From contig JAJAZD010000117.1 in assembly GCA_026785945.1 (NCBI GenBank), positions 1 through 36,421 of the forward strand: DNA of 36,421 bases. Direction: 5' to 3'. Shown piece after piece: positions 4,641-9,400 of the stretch. The position numbers and the translations under genes were made by a program. This DNA comes from Pseudonocardia sp. (lineage in GTDB: Bacteria > Actinomycetota > Actinomycetes > Mycobacteriales > Pseudonocardiaceae). The notes below the pieces were generated by a model. That model was not told the DNA's origin and did not search any database. It worked only from the letters and a program-made list of their open reading frames with translations. How positions within the stretch are numbered: the first letter of the stretch is position 1; each line of letters begins with the position of its first letter.

Positions 4641-4695
4641 ATCGGCCCGCCCTCGCCGCGGCCGGTGCGCCATCGGGCGGCGGCCGAGCGAAACG

Positions 4696-4724
4696 CTGAC
4701 CACGCGCACACGGCTGCCTACGCT
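4696..4724 (+). promoter_or_regulatory. Predicted sigma-70-type promoter of the MFS gene
   Basis: CTGACC (4696-4701) and TACGCT (4719-4724) are separated by 17 bases, close to the vegetative TTGACA-N17-TANNNT pattern. The start point would be near 4731, leaving a leader of about 39 bases that contains the ribosome-binding site gaaaggg. Confidence 0.4.
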
Positions 4725-4769
4725 GGGTCCACCGGCCGCAGCGGAACCAGGCCGAAAGGGCGGGACCCG

Positions 4770-6083
4770 ATGAGCGGTGTCGATCCGGCTGACGGTGTCG
4801 GGTCGGGCGGTGTCGGGTCGGGCGGCGGGGGGTTCGGTCAGGTCTTCCGCGTCCCGGCGTTCCGCGCGATCTGGGCGGCCGAGCTGTTCTCGGTGGCCGG
4901 CGACCAGGTCGCCAGGGTCGCGCTCGCCGTTCTGGTCTACGGCCGGACCGGGTCGGCGGCGTGGGCGGCCACGACCTACGCCCTGACGTTCCTGCCGGCC
5001 CTGGTCGGTGGGGTGCTGCTCGCCGGCCTCGCCGATCGCTTCCCGCGCCGAGACGTGATCATCGTCAGCGACCTCCTGCGGGCCGTCCTCGTCGCGGTGA
5101 TGGCGATCCCACAACTCCCGCTGTGGCTGCTCTGCGGCATCCTCGTCGTCGTCGTGCTGCTCCACTCGCCGCACTCCGCGGCGCAGGGCGCGCTCATGCC
5201 CGAGATCCTCCGTGGCCGGTTGTACGAGCGGGGGCTCGCCGTCCGGCAGATGACGGCGCAGACCGCGCAGCTCGTGGGCTTCGCGGGCGGCGGGCTCCTG
5301 GTGGCCGCGATCAGTCCGTCGGTGGCCCTGCTCCTCGACGCCGCGACGTTCGCGCTGTCCGCCGTCCTGATCCGGTCGGGCGTCCCCGACCGGTCGCGAC
5401 CCGTCCCCGACCGGGCGCACCACCCGGCCGGTGGCTACCGCGCCGCGGTGAGGGGCATCGTCGACATCGCCGCCGACCCGAGGCGTCGGGCACTCGTGCT
5501 GCTCGCCTGGCTCGTCGGCTGTTACGTGGTCCCGGAGGCACTCGCAGCGCCGTACGCAGCCGAGATCGGCGCCGGGCCCTCCGTGGTCGGGATCATGATG
5601 GCCGCCGACCCGCTCGGCAGCGTGATCGGGGCATGGCTGTTCATACGGTTCGTGCCGGCCGACGTGCGCGAACGCATCGTCGGTGTCCTGGCCGTGGCCG
5701 CCGGCCTGCCGTTGATGCTGATGTTCCTACGACCCGAGGTCCCGGTGACCCTGCTGCTGTGGGGCGTATCGGGAATGTTCTCCACCGCCTACCTGCTGCA
5801 GACCCAGGCCAGTTTCGTACGGGCCACGCCCGATGCCGGACGCGGCCGCGCGATCGGCGTGGCGGCGTCCGGCATCATCGCCGGGCAGGGTGTGGCGGTC
5901 TTCCTCGGTGGCCTCCTCGCCGACCTGTGGAGCCCGTCGACCGCGATCGTGATCTTCGGGGCGATCGGCGCCCTGCTCGCGCTCGGTGGGACCGTGGCGT
6001 GGGCCCGCGCAGCCGGTGGAAGGGATTCCTCCGTCGCGATCTGGGCCCACGCCGACGCCACTTCCAGCCCGAGTGGCTCCTGA
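4770..6083 (+). CDS. MFS transporter, EntS/MFS_3-like exporter
   Basis: This 437-residue polytopic membrane protein has about ten to twelve hydrophobic segments. The MFS loop-2/3 motif appears as GLADRFPRRDVI (about residues 88-99). The overall pattern (FRVPAFRAIWAAELFSVAGDQVARVALAVLVY at the start, SPHSAAQGALMPE in the middle, and a second half beginning RRALVLLAWLVG) is that of the MFS_3/transmembrane secretion effector group that includes the enterobactin exporter EntS. The substrate is unknown. The ATG at 4770 was chosen because gaaaggg lies 10 bases upstream and the preceding codons are low-complexity. It is transcribed alone, convergent with the small-ORF unit at 6168-6258. The N-terminus carries a glycine-rich repeat (GSGGVGSGGGG). 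Confidence 0.88.
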   Translation: MSGVDPADGVGSGGVGSGGGGFGQVFRVPAFRAIWAAELFSVAGDQVARVALAVLVYGRTGSAAWAATTYALTFLPALVGGVLLAGLADRFPRRDVIIVSDLLRAVLVAVMAIPQLPLWLLCGILVVVVLLHSPHSAAQGALMPEILRGRLYERGLAVRQMTAQTAQLVGFAGGGLLVAAISPSVALLLDAATFALSAVLIRSGVPDRSRPVPDRAHHPAGGYRAAVRGIVDIAADPRRRALVLLAWLVGCYVVPEALAAPYAAEIGAGPSVVGIMMAADPLGSVIGAWLFIRFVPADVRERIVGVLAVAAGLPLMLMFLRPEVPVTLLLWGVSGMFSTAYLLQTQASFVRATPDAGRGRAIGVAASGIIAGQGVAVFLGGLLADLWSPSTAIVIFGAIGALLALGGTVAWARAAGGRDSSVAIWAHADATSSPSGS

Positions 6084-6145: not shown

Positions 6146-6172
6146 GGGGTCAGTGGGGTCAGTGGGGTCAGT
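6146..6172. repeat. Three tandem copies of ggggtcagt
   Basis: Exact 9-mers lie at 6146-6154, 6155-6163 and 6164-6172. Read on the minus strand they are ACTGACCCC and continue from the end of the 7-codon ORF, so its last codons (CAC TGA CCC) are triplicated. This looks like slippage at the edge of the repeat unit. Confidence 0.8.
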
Positions 6173-6191
6173 GCCATTCTTTGCCGCGCAC
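6168..6191 (-). CDS. Putative 7-codon ORF MRGKEWH, copy 1
   Basis: GTG CGC GGC AAA GAA TGG CAC TGA, with AAAGGAG (6204-6198) six bases before the GTG. The peptide is identical to that of copy 2 although the DNA differs at the Lys codon and the stop codon, which suggests the peptide or its translation is maintained. It is too short for normal gene finders. I recognise no family. The size recalls the minimal precursor genes of P450-modified peptides (biarylitides, MRYYH), but no cytochrome P450 or other modifying enzyme lies next to it. A regulatory upstream ORF is the main alternative. Confidence 0.4.
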   Translation of the reverse strand: MRGKEWH

Positions 6192-6234
6192 GAGGTGCTC
6201 CTTTCGGTGTGTGGTGTGGTGGGTGGTGGTGGGG

Positions 6235-6258
6235 TTAGTGCCATTCCTTGCCGCGCAC
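6235..6258 (-). CDS. Putative 7-codon ORF MRGKEWH, copy 2
   Basis: GTG CGC GGC AAG GAA TGG CAC TAA, with AAGGAG (6270-6265) six bases before the GTG. It is the promoter-proximal copy of the pair, 44 bases upstream of copy 1 in reading direction. An inverted repeat at 6295-6335 lies upstream and may hold its promoter or operator. No gene follows the pair on the minus strand, so it does not look like a leader peptide for a downstream operon. Confidence 0.4.
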   Translation of the reverse strand: MRGKEWH

Positions 6259-6294
6259 GGGGTGCTCCTTCCGGAGTGTCGGTCGATGACTGTG

Positions 6295-6589: not shown

Positions 6590-7969
6590 GTGCGAATGTC
6601 CGACAACGATCAAGGGAAGCCTTGGCGATTCCCTGTACCGGGCGTTCTGTCTCTCCGGACCTGGACGCTGTGGAGCCTCCCCCCCTCTCTCGTGATCTCC
6701 GTCATCACAGTGGAGGTCACCATTCTGTCACTGGTCGGGTTGGGAGCGATGTCCGCCGGGCTCCCCTCGGACGCGGAGATCCGCGCAGGAGTGTTGGTCG
6801 GCGTCCTCGGCATTGCACACACGGAAGCCGTACGCAACGTCGAGCGGGTGCGTCGTCGCGTGATGGTGGAGGATCTGCACATCAACCTCGGCTCGGTGTG
6901 GTTCTTCGCCGGAGCCGTTCTGCTCTCGCCGACGCTCGCGGCAGCCTGTACCGCGGTCGTCCACGTCCACCTGTGGTGGCGGGCGGATGGTGCCCGGACT
7001 CCCCTGTACCGGCAGATCTTCAGTACGTCCTCACTGGCGATGGCGAGCTTCGCCGCCTCCGCGGCGATGACCTACGCGGCGGGCTCGGTCGGATCCGCGG
7101 CGCGGCTCGGCCAGGACATAGTGCCGGTGCTCGTGCTGGGAATGTTGGTTTTCGCGACGGTCAACACCGCCCTCGTCGCGGGAGCCATCGCCGTGAGCAG
7201 CCCTGGATCGAAGATCGAACAGCTCGTGGGTGATTGGGACGAGAACCTGCTCGAACTCACCACTCTTTGTCTCGGTGCACTCACCGCCGCCGCCATCGTG
7301 ATCAATCCTTGGCTGGTGGGTTTCGCGATCCTGCCGCTTCTGATGCTGCATCGCGCGGTGCTCGTTCGCCACCTCCGGGAAGCGGCCACGATCGACGGCA
7401 AGACCGGGCTCCTCAATGCGGCCGCCTGGCACACACAGGCTCAGCGAGCGTTGCGACGCGTCGTGCGCAGTACGCAACCGCGCGCTGTGCTCGTTCTCGA
7501 CCTCGACCACTTCAAGACGGTGAACGACACGCACGGGCATCTCGCCGGCGATCATGTGCTCGCCGCGGTGGCCGGTGCACTGCGGGACGAGGTGCGCGAC
7601 CGGGATCTCGTCGGGCGGTTCGGCGGCGAGGAGTTCGTGGTGCTGCTCTCCGGGTTGCAGAACGGTGGCGACGAGGAGTTCGAGGCCGTGGCCGAGCGGA
7701 TTCGGGGTCGGATCGCGTCGCTCCGCGTCGAGATCCCCACGCCGGACGGTCCGTTGACGGTCTCGGGGCTGAGCATCTCCGTCGGAGGGGTCGTGTGCCC
7801 GCAGGACGGCGGCGATCTCCAGGACCTGCTGCAGATCGCCGACACGGCTCTGTACGCGGCCAAGCATGCCGGCCGGAACATGGTCCGGATGGGCCCGGCC
7901 CGTCACGCATCGCTGCCCCGCGTCGCGGGCGAACCGTCGGTCACACACCAACGAGGACCCGCGCAGTAA
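6590..7969 (+). CDS. Membrane-anchored diguanylate cyclase (GGDEF), paralog 1
   Basis: This 459-residue protein has an N-terminal membrane region of about six hydrophobic segments (residues 20-265), then a GGDEF domain (about 275-440) that makes cyclic di-GMP from two GTP. Seen in the domain: [33 protein letters not shown], and the active site GGEEF (about 345-349). RDRD lies five residues before it, which is the RxxD inhibitory I-site, so product feedback is expected. SVGGV and DTALYAAKHAGRN complete the fold. The start may be GTG 6590 or ATG 6596; neither has a strong ribosome-binding site. It is followed directly by a paralog with the same architecture. Its GC content is visibly lower than that of the paralog. 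The membrane domain resembles no sensor I can name. Confidence 0.92.
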   Translation: MRMSDNDQGKPWRFPVPGVLSLRTWTLWSLPPSLVISVITVEVTILSLVGLGAMSAGLPSDAEIRAGVLVGVLGIAHTEAVRNVERVRRRVMVEDLHINLGSVWFFAGAVLLSPTLAAACTAVVHVHLWWRADGARTPLYRQIFSTSSLAMASFAASAAMTYAAGSVGSAARLGQDIVPVLVLGMLVFATVNTALVAGAIAVSSPGSKIEQLVGDWDENLLELTTLCLGALTAAAIVINPWLVGFAILPLLMLHRAVLVRHLREAATIDGKTGLLNAAAWHTQAQRALRRVVRSTQPRAVLVLDLDHFKTVNDTHGHLAGDHVLAAVAGALRDEVRDRDLVGRFGGEEFVVLLSGLQNGGDEEFEAVAERIRGRIASLRVEIPTPDGPLTVSGLSISVGGVVCPQDGGDLQDLLQIADTALYAAKHAGRNMVRMGPARHASLPRVAGEPSVTHQRGPAQ

Positions 7970-8026
7970 GTCACACGGAGTGACAAGTTCGAAGGAGGTC
8001 TACCCCGACGAGCGATGAGTTTCCCC

Positions 8027-8055
8027 CTGACACGCCGTCGGCCGATCACTAGCCT
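8027..8055 (+). promoter_or_regulatory. Predicted promoter of the second GGDEF gene
   Basis: CTGACA (8027-8032) and TAGCCT (8050-8055) are separated by exactly 17 bases. Transcription would begin near 8062, downstream of the ATG at 8015, which excludes that ATG for this transcript. The -35 hexamer is identical to that of the first GGDEF gene. Confidence 0.5.
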
Positions 8056-8092
8056 CGTTCGCATATTGCGGCACAGCGTTCGAGGGGGTCTC

Positions 8093-9400
8093 GTGGTGGA
8101 CGAAATGGCGCTCCGCCCTTCTCCCGCAGGTCGGGGGTGGGCGCTGTGGAGCTTGCCGACCCGCGCTGTCGCGGTGGTGCTCACGGTGGAAGCAGTGGCC
8201 GTGGCCGTCGTGTTGTCCTCGGCCGCCACGCCCCTGCCCGGGGAGGCGGCGCTCGCCGTGTTCGTGGTGCTGCTGAGCGTGGTCCACACCGAGCTCGCCA
8301 CCGGTATCGAACGCATCCGCAGGCGGACCGCCGCCACCTCCTACTTCGACCTCAGCTCCGTCTGGACCTTCGCCGCCGCCCTGCTGCTGCCCACGCTGCT
8401 GACCGCCGGGGTCGTCGTCGCGGTGTATACGCACCTCTGGCGGCGCGTCTGGCGTCCGGCCAAGGTGGCCCTGCACCGGCACGTCTACACGACGGCCACC
8501 GTCGTCCTCGCCGCCGCCGCGGCGCACGCTGCTGTCCGCTCGGTCGGCGGCCTGCCCGAGGGCCCCGACGACCTCGGCGGCATCCTCGCCATCGGGCTGG
8601 CCATCCTCGTCTACATCACGGTCAACACCACGCTCGTCGCCGGGGAGATGTCGCTGAGCAGCGGTCCCACCGGTCTCCGGGACCTGCTCGGGCGCCTGGA
8701 CGACAACGCCCTCGAGATCGCGACGTTGTGCATGGGCGCGCTGGCCGCGGTCGCACTCACTGCGGCGCCGGGCCTGGTCGCGTTGGCGCTGCCGCCGATC
8801 CTGGTCCTGCACCGGGCCGTGCTGGTCCGCCATCTGGAGCAGGTGGCGAGCACCGACTCGAAGACCGGGTTGCTCACCAACGCGGCGTGGCGGACGGAGG
8901 CCGCACGCACCGTCGGCCGGGTGCAGCGTGCCAGCCGCGCCGTCGCGGTCCTGATCCTGGACCTCGACCACTTCAAGACCGTCAACGACGTCCACGGCCA
9001 CCTGGCCGGGGACGACGTGCTGGCCGCGGTCGCGACCCAGCTGCGCACCGGGGTCCGCGAGCACGATGTCGTCGGCCGGTTCGGCGGCGAGGAGTTCGTC
9101 GTTCTGCTGCGCGACCTGCCCACGGGGCAGGCGGGACGCACGGAGATGTTCGCCGTGGCGGAACGCCTGCGTCGCCGGATCGCGGGCCTCGACGTGGTCG
9201 TGGACACCGCGGACGGCGTGTTGACCGTCAACGGCCTCTCGATCTCCGTCGGCGGCGCGGCGTTCCCGGCCGACGGCGCCGCCCTCGAACAGGTGATGAG
9301 AGTCGCCGACGCCTCGCTGTACGCGGCCAAGCGGGCCGGTCGCAACCTGGTGCGCATCGCGGGCCCCGCGGAGATCCCGACGCCGCGCAGCGGGAGCTGA
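8093..9400 (+). CDS. Membrane-anchored diguanylate cyclase (GGDEF), paralog 2
   Basis: This 435-residue protein has the same design as its upstream neighbour: a hydrophobic N-terminal half ([20 protein letters not shown] and later segments), then a GGDEF domain with [22 protein letters not shown], the active-site GGEEF (about residues 331-335) and the I-site REHD five residues before it. The two proteins share the membrane pattern as well ([28 protein letters not shown]), so this is a tandem duplication of the whole gene. I chose the GTG at 8093 because GAGGGGG precedes it by a few bases and the likely promoter ends at 8055. An ATG at 8015 would add 26 residues, and its nearest GGAGG is 18 bases away. 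Confidence 0.9.

Follow-up and report, generated by a model that had tools for sequence, protein, structure and literature searches.

The 36,421-nucleotide stretch of Pseudonocardia sp. DNA analysed here (contig JAJAZD010000117.1, hereafter the window) contains a two-unit array of seven-codon open reading frames (mini-ORFs), each encoding MRGKEWH behind a Shine-Dalgarno (SD) sequence, located between a divergent gene for a GGDEF-domain diguanylate cyclase and a convergent gene for a major facilitator superfamily (MFS) transporter. Comparison to relatives reveals that the array belongs to a peptide family that is widely conserved and apparently undescribed; in a literature search that left most subscription papers outside, we found no description of such arrays or of a cyclase read out in this manner. 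We consider it likely, though well short of certain, that the leaderless peptides are ligands of the peptide-sensing diguanylate cyclase encoded next door. The computed support consists of selection at the peptide level, linkage to the GGDEF gene, coevolution specific to the sensor domain, a match between individual peptide and sensor residues, and a predicted fold of ligand-binding type.

Selection on the encoded peptide

Both window units lie on the minus strand, in an array at 6162..6279 composed of 51-nt direct repeats (6162-6212 and 6229-6279) with 90% identity and a spacing of 67 nt. The first unit in the sense direction (6270-6235) reads AAGGAG-CACCCC-GTG CGC GGC AAG GAA TGG CAC TAA, with the SD at 6265..6270 and the mini-ORF at 6235..6258, and the second (6203-6168) reads AAGGAG-CACCTC-GTG CGC GGC AAA GAA TGG CAC TGA, with the SD at 6198..6203 and the mini-ORF at 6168..6191. 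The initial annotation had located both copies correctly, including the AAGGAG-N6 arrangement, and had noted that the differences within the ORFs are silent; indeed, only two of the five differences between the repeats fall in the ORFs, and both are silent. As two silent changes between two copies are weak evidence on their own, the evidence for selection was drawn from relatives.

Substitutions were counted in 72 repeated-peptide arrays from 60 genomes, using 387 same-length units of the 399 mini-ORFs in the fetched loci, with each change taken once per array and Trp and stop codons excluded. Past residue 2, 56 of 65 changes are silent, compared to 21.8 expected from random placement, a value that none of 200000 simulations reached, while residue 2 looks unconstrained (23 of 43 silent, 19.5 expected). 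Dropping the similarity filter left these counts unchanged; they replace a first count that was contaminated by chance matches and variant-length units. In addition, Ser codons swap between AGC and TCC, a two-base change, in arrays from two orders, namely MRNKSW in Pseudonocardia and MRGNSWD in f22 (f9, f12, f19, f20, f22 and f34 are working family labels). In the 38 arrays that have four or more distinct units, pairwise identity averages about 0.45 for the spacers, 0.86 for the best SD position and 0.92-1.0 for most ORF positions. Since SD, start, stop and Trp were conditions of the filter, the weight rests on the remaining codons.

The initial annotation had named conservation of the DNA repeat with frameshifts or missense changes as the outcome that would speak against a selected heptapeptide. 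Searching with the DNA core alone returned 422 sites. Intact ORFs as long as the other units of their array account for 399 of these. The remaining 23 include at least three units that appear to be broken (L071, L073 and L179), but for the most part they are chance matches or variants of greater or lesser length. The predominance of silent changes past residue 2 is likewise contrary to that outcome. We conclude that selection acts at the level of the peptide, and the excess of silent changes in the arrays of relatives bears out what had been suspected from the window pair.

Linkage to the diguanylate cyclase gene

In the window, the divergent gene (6590..7969, plus strand) encodes an N-terminal membrane sensor followed by a GGDEF domain (Pfam GGDEF, residues 266-430). 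Such a gene is linked to the mini-ORFs: the 113 fetched loci whose MFS match exceeds 60 bits divide into 66 with both, 35 with neither, 4 with the GGDEF gene only and 8 with mini-ORFs only (Fisher p 4e-17, relatives counted separately), in a set that was chosen rather than random, was fetched from a part of all MFS matches, and excludes matches of 60 bits or less and loci at contig ends. The four GGDEF-only loci include L247, whose fused form escaped the filter; this f22 genome (G615) has at least four units in which a single ORF joins two cores, MRDTNWVLRDTNWSW. The mini-only loci comprise six from Pseudonocardia with RNRSW-type mini-ORFs, one from Amorphoplanes (L126), and one MAWCH that is probably a chance ORF. 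As a control, the opposite strand of the same regions gives 4 filter matches in 165 kb.

The linkage is also seen within genomes. Five f22 genomes have three MFS matches each, and the two loci with a GGDEF gene carry arrays, encoding different peptides, while the third, without GGDEF, has no array of this type. In a tree of 104 GGDEF proteins the peptide tracks the GGDEF clade and not the genome; in each of six Pseudonocardia genomes, for instance, one GGDEF is accompanied by MRNRGW and a second by MRNWGW, MRNWGF or MRNWTW. The GGDEF gene is the partner of the array, and a more constant one than the MFS gene. The latter (4665..6083, plus strand; Pfam MFS_1/MFS_3) is a possible peptide exporter. 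As previously noted, it is the next gene beyond the array, with no same-strand gene downstream, and its suggested role as a partner is supported by its conservation as a neighbour, but the GGDEF gene on the other side of the array, which probably encodes the receptor, had been overlooked.

Coevolution of the peptide with the sensor domain

All 26 proteins read have the GGEEF active-site motif. For the N-terminal part, no Pfam match exceeds the cut-off (a weak MASE9 match, E 0.01, lies below it) and no solved structure matches by sequence at E<=1; the sensor domain (6650..7387, plus strand) is predicted to adopt a fold resembling that of the S-components of energy-coupling factor (ECF) transporters, which are built from six membrane helices. 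Partial correlations with peptide distance single out this domain. Over 61 three-part loci the values are 0.43 for the sensor, -0.08 for the GGDEF domain and -0.07 for the MFS protein; within Pseudonocardia (31 rows) they are 0.71, -0.38 and 0.13, and within f22 (20 rows) 0.39, 0.02 and 0.06, with the MFS compared over a C-terminal stretch of about 114 columns only and none of the correlations carrying a phylogeny-aware significance. The coevolution is receptor-like and specific to the sensor.

At the level of single residues, sensor position 188 is the top variable column for the peptide residue three positions ahead of Trp (W-3), with an adjusted mutual information of 0.79 in 48 representatives, compared to a mean of 0.129 (sd 0.109) over the variable columns, and position 105 is second at 0.59. 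The window protein has F188 (codon 7151..7153, plus strand) and F105 (6902..6904, plus strand), together with Gly at W-3. In 81 rows, Asn at W-3 pairs with Tyr188 in 35 of 35 cases and Asp with Gln (9) or Arg (14) in 23 of 23; the further pairs are Gly-Phe (12), Gly-Ala (4), Ser-Phe (3), and Ala with Phe, Ser, Asn and Cys, once each. Of 34 held-out rows, two with residue 188 unreadable and the probable chance ORFs MFDRDF and MGDYFR were excluded, and the 30 usable ones all fit (5 Asn-Tyr, 7 Asp/Glu-Arg and 18 others with Phe, Ala or Cys), many of them being close kin of the first set; a distant one is MRDVHWG of f34, which has Arg188. Two peptides from rows added later, MRNIIWG of f20 and MRNREY of a different genus in the family, also fit Asn-Tyr188.

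A weaker match links the residue after Trp to sensor position 133, which is Asp in the window (6986..6988, plus strand) where the peptide has His. Of 36 peptides with Trp as the last residue, 21 go with Trp133, compared to 1 of the 45 others; Lys133 accompanies Asp in 7 of 7 cases, and Glu133 is found with the Arg of MRGKEWR. Two held-out rows, MRNKTWG and MRDNNWT, are exceptions with Trp133. Sensor columns of about 130-140 also track the peptide. Per-column covariation scores disagree between Pseudonocardia and f22 (Spearman 0.11, p 0.13; overlap of the top 40 columns 9, expected 8.1), and we therefore put forward only the 188/105 match, obtained over all rows.

Distribution and variation of the arrays

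The exact heptapeptide is present in 1 of 390 family genomes, that of the window, so conservation was sought through relaxed patterns and synteny. A first relaxed pattern, with matches in 6 of 62 genus genomes compared to 4 of 62 for the reversed control, carried little weight by itself and was replaced. The better pattern (SD, start, Arg, N/G/D/S, Lys, any residue, Trp, at most about one further residue, stop) matches 31 of 390 family genomes, and its reverse none of 390.

An MFS match at E<=1e-40 is present in 50 of 62 genus genomes, and arrays were located by reading its 3' flank. Relatives share the GGDEF-array-MFS layout with up to 22 units; the count of two in the window had been given correctly, while these larger arrays had been missed. 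The 22 units of Pseudonocardia dioxanivorans CB1190 (L101) are 21 MRNKSW or MSNKSW and one MRNKSWH about 400 nt upstream, and other arrays beside the MFS gene in the genus encode MRNHNW (13 units), MSKDWN (7), MGKDWN (6), MRNRTWI (7), MRNWNW and others. The same layout in f22, which belongs to another order, carries MRDTTWS (12 units, plus one MRDTTWR), MRDNTWT (8), MRDNNWN (8) and MRGNSWD (6). Peptides mostly follow M-x-[NDGAS]-x-x-W with 0-2 further residues, and other species and paralogues carry different ones. In f9, f12, f19, f20 and f34, single or double units diverge from a GGDEF gene of this type (MLRGVTWI, two units of MRSVQWA, MRDVHWG and others).

Searching the available GTDB genomes with the exact pattern gave 34 stretches, and of the 12 apparently outside the family that were inspected, two are convincing (L126 and L100) and one suggestive (L127); the other nine look like chance, including MRGKTWR of Pseudomonas. 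L126 (2626-2706), from Amorphoplanes auranticolor, has two mini-ORFs and a 64%-identical MFS protein, with no GGDEF match in the 8-kb locus, and possibly arose by transfer. In L127 (146-380), an Actinomycetales metagenome-assembled genome, two MDDVELGRxWx forms and MRGKRW, all Trp-ending mini-ORFs, are found at the start of a same-strand ORF containing a 40%-identical MFS match, possibly a variant layout.

Several further loci deserve mention. At L087 (5537-5632), which is not the MFS locus, MRNKTWG and MSNKTWG mini-ORFs are near a GGDEF gene and a gene that, judged by eye from the start of its ORF, is secA-like. At L180, L181 and L184, MFS loci without GGDEF retain an NRSW-stop stretch with no start codon seen by eye, as if units were decaying. 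L074 (5142-6418) shows repeats of 21 nt separated by drifting spacers about 40 nt long, and arrays of this kind could be mistaken for clustered regularly interspaced short palindromic repeats (CRISPR). Upstream of the first unit, by 72-177 nt, seven f22 arrays (L224, L227, L230, L242, L243, L246 and L248) have GACAATAG; of the 72 arrays, 7 from f22 and 4 from Pseudonocardia have GA[CG]AATAG in the 300 nt ahead of them, too few to claim a common promoter motif.

A second GGDEF paralogue follows in tandem in the window (8015..9400, plus strand). No mini-ORF of its own was found for it, nor for GGDEF genes directly behind another GGDEF at other loci, and most such tandem copies in Pseudonocardia retain Tyr188/Thr105/Trp133, the pocket type of MRNxxW peptides. 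These second copies may read a peptide produced elsewhere. A further GGDEF of the same family is located on contig C200 (L289) of the window genome; no mini-ORF was found beside it.

Proposed mechanism and alternative explanations

We propose that the mini-ORFs would be translated to leaderless peptides of 6-8 residues, here MRGKEWH, whose core, mostly [N/D/G/A/S]-x-x-W with 0-2 further residues, would bind the membrane sensor of the cyclase. Multiplication of the ORF would raise the peptide dose. In the window's family and f22, the convergent MFS protein probably exports the peptide, which would then be detected on the outer side of the cell, probably as an autocrine or a density-dependent signal. 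The sensed peptide would alter synthesis of the second messenger cyclic di-GMP, by either activation or inhibition. A free signalling peptide, one of the options initially considered, is judged plausible.

Some observations weigh against this proposal. Evolution is faster in the sensor than in the catalytic domain (mean distance 0.62 compared to 0.45), which could inflate the contrast between the two; MRSIIWT (f20) with Tyr188 is a clear exception to the residue pattern, the only one; independent pairs on supported branches, though all in the expected direction, number 3 and 2, not enough for a test; and the filter finds a mini-ORF at only 20 of 34 GGDEF loci of f9, f12, f19, f20 and f34. Among the 14 without, L319 has a longer ORF (MERGVTWTYQLPQPR), and L307 (f20) has an MRNIIWG-type mini-ORF shortened to MRNII by a TGA in place of the Trp codon.

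Instead of being exported, the peptide may stay in the cell as a cofactor that the cyclase binds on its cytoplasmic face or while it folds, with the MFS protein an unrelated or accessory neighbour. The absence of a signal sequence from the peptides agrees with this, as does the position of the peptide-tracking columns 130-140, a loop that would be cytoplasmic in an S-component-like topology. Within the fetched stretch an MFS match is present at 2 of the 20 distant mini-bearing loci (L302 and L250) and at none of the remainder, leaving most f19 and f20 GGDEF-mini pairs without one. However, the MFS gene adjoins the array in two orders, and ECF S-components bind their ligand on the outer side. 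We regard a cofactor role as unlikely, yet as the most serious competitor to an exported ligand.

Could the peptide, alternatively, be a precursor that is modified like those of biarylitides or microcin C to yield a small product, with the GGDEF protein merely regulating production? MFS export is reminiscent of microcin C, and ORFs of 5-8 codons, also in multiple copies, are known precursors of ribosomally synthesized and post-translationally modified peptides (RiPPs) according to PMC13417212. Yet a scan of 35 window ORFs, of which 15 have no Pfam match, detected no cytochrome P450, ThiF-like or other RiPP-type enzyme, with no P450 search made genome-wide and the neighbours of distant arrays not searched systematically. 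Most of the peptides have one aromatic residue, and peptide divergence tracks the sensor domain. The biarylitide-like product raised in the initial annotation is not supported. Even less probable is an element acting as RNA, in which the SD/stop repeats serve as a sponge for ribosomes or small RNAs or tune the divergent GGDEF promoter, the peptide being irrelevant. Every counted unit has an SD, itself a filter condition, and several arrays have CA-rich spacers, but the excess of silent changes, the Ser codon switches and the covariation of peptide and sensor residues oppose such an element, and a search of three loci (L074, L012 and L221) gave no Rfam match at the gathering threshold. A regulatory pair of mini-ORFs, also suggested earlier, is unlikely, since the gene that follows is convergent and selection on the codons operates at the level of the peptide. 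In short, we give modification to a small product a slim chance and an RNA element almost none, as the enzymes were not found, the changes are mostly silent and the coevolution is sensor-specific.

Relation to known systems

The microcin C exporter MccC is an MFS protein. Here the peptide would come from its own short gene, of 6-8 codons with an SD and peptide-level selection; the differences from microcin C are the tandem arrays paired with a GGDEF sensor and the lack of an MccB-like (ThiF) domain among the 35 window ORFs. The seven-codon mccA gene gives rise to a formylated heptapeptide, and a seven-codon mRNA is translated reiteratively in vitro, as described in PMC6495379; very short ORFs are efficient templates. 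Biarylitide bytA genes (MxYxY/H) are five-residue ORFs that evade annotation and are known in Actinomycetota, with six precursor copies in one Lysinibacillus strain; according to the same source (PMC13417212), a precursor is five to eight residues long, bears aromatics at positions 3 and 5, and needs a P450. In contrast, MRGKEWH and most of the main peptides lack an aromatic residue at position 3 and usually have a single Trp, and the scanned window ORFs include no P450.

Gram-positive pheromones are read by cytoplasmic regulators or histidine kinases, and the peptides of Rgg-SHP, PapR-PlcR and the arbitrium system (AimP) are cut from longer, leader-bearing precursors. The arrays resemble these systems in that a short, species-specific peptide coevolves with a linked receptor-like protein, albeit with few independent contrasts; they differ in that the whole ORF, mostly 6-8 codons, is the peptide, without a longer leader-bearing precursor, and in that the probable receptor is a diguanylate cyclase. 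A peptide-controlled diguanylate cyclase is known in Bdellovibrio DgcB (FHA-GGDEF), where, however, the activating peptide derives from the N-terminal region of the enzyme itself (PMC6733907). The membrane sensor ahead of GGDEF recalls MASE-type sensors, and the predicted fold recalls ECF S-components, though here it forms one protein with GGDEF, encoded beside peptide genes.

Conclusions

Going beyond the ligand proposal, the arrays could represent a new class of bacterial cell-cell signalling, operating in actinomycetes, in which array-amplified, leaderless hexa- to octapeptides are exported by an MFS protein and received by an S-component-like diguanylate cyclase with a readable specificity code, allowing several insulated channels within one genome; we advance this tentatively, at slightly less than even chances. 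Within such a class, sensor positions 188/105 would specify W-3 and, less firmly, position 133 the residue after Trp. If true, genes of 6-8 codons, below annotation size and in up to 22 units, would be dedicated ligands of a second-messenger enzyme, and an orphan class of diguanylate cyclase sensors would gain its cognate ligands. An ECF S-component-like fold could then act as a peptide receptor, with a residue-level specificity code that would be directly testable with synthetic peptides.
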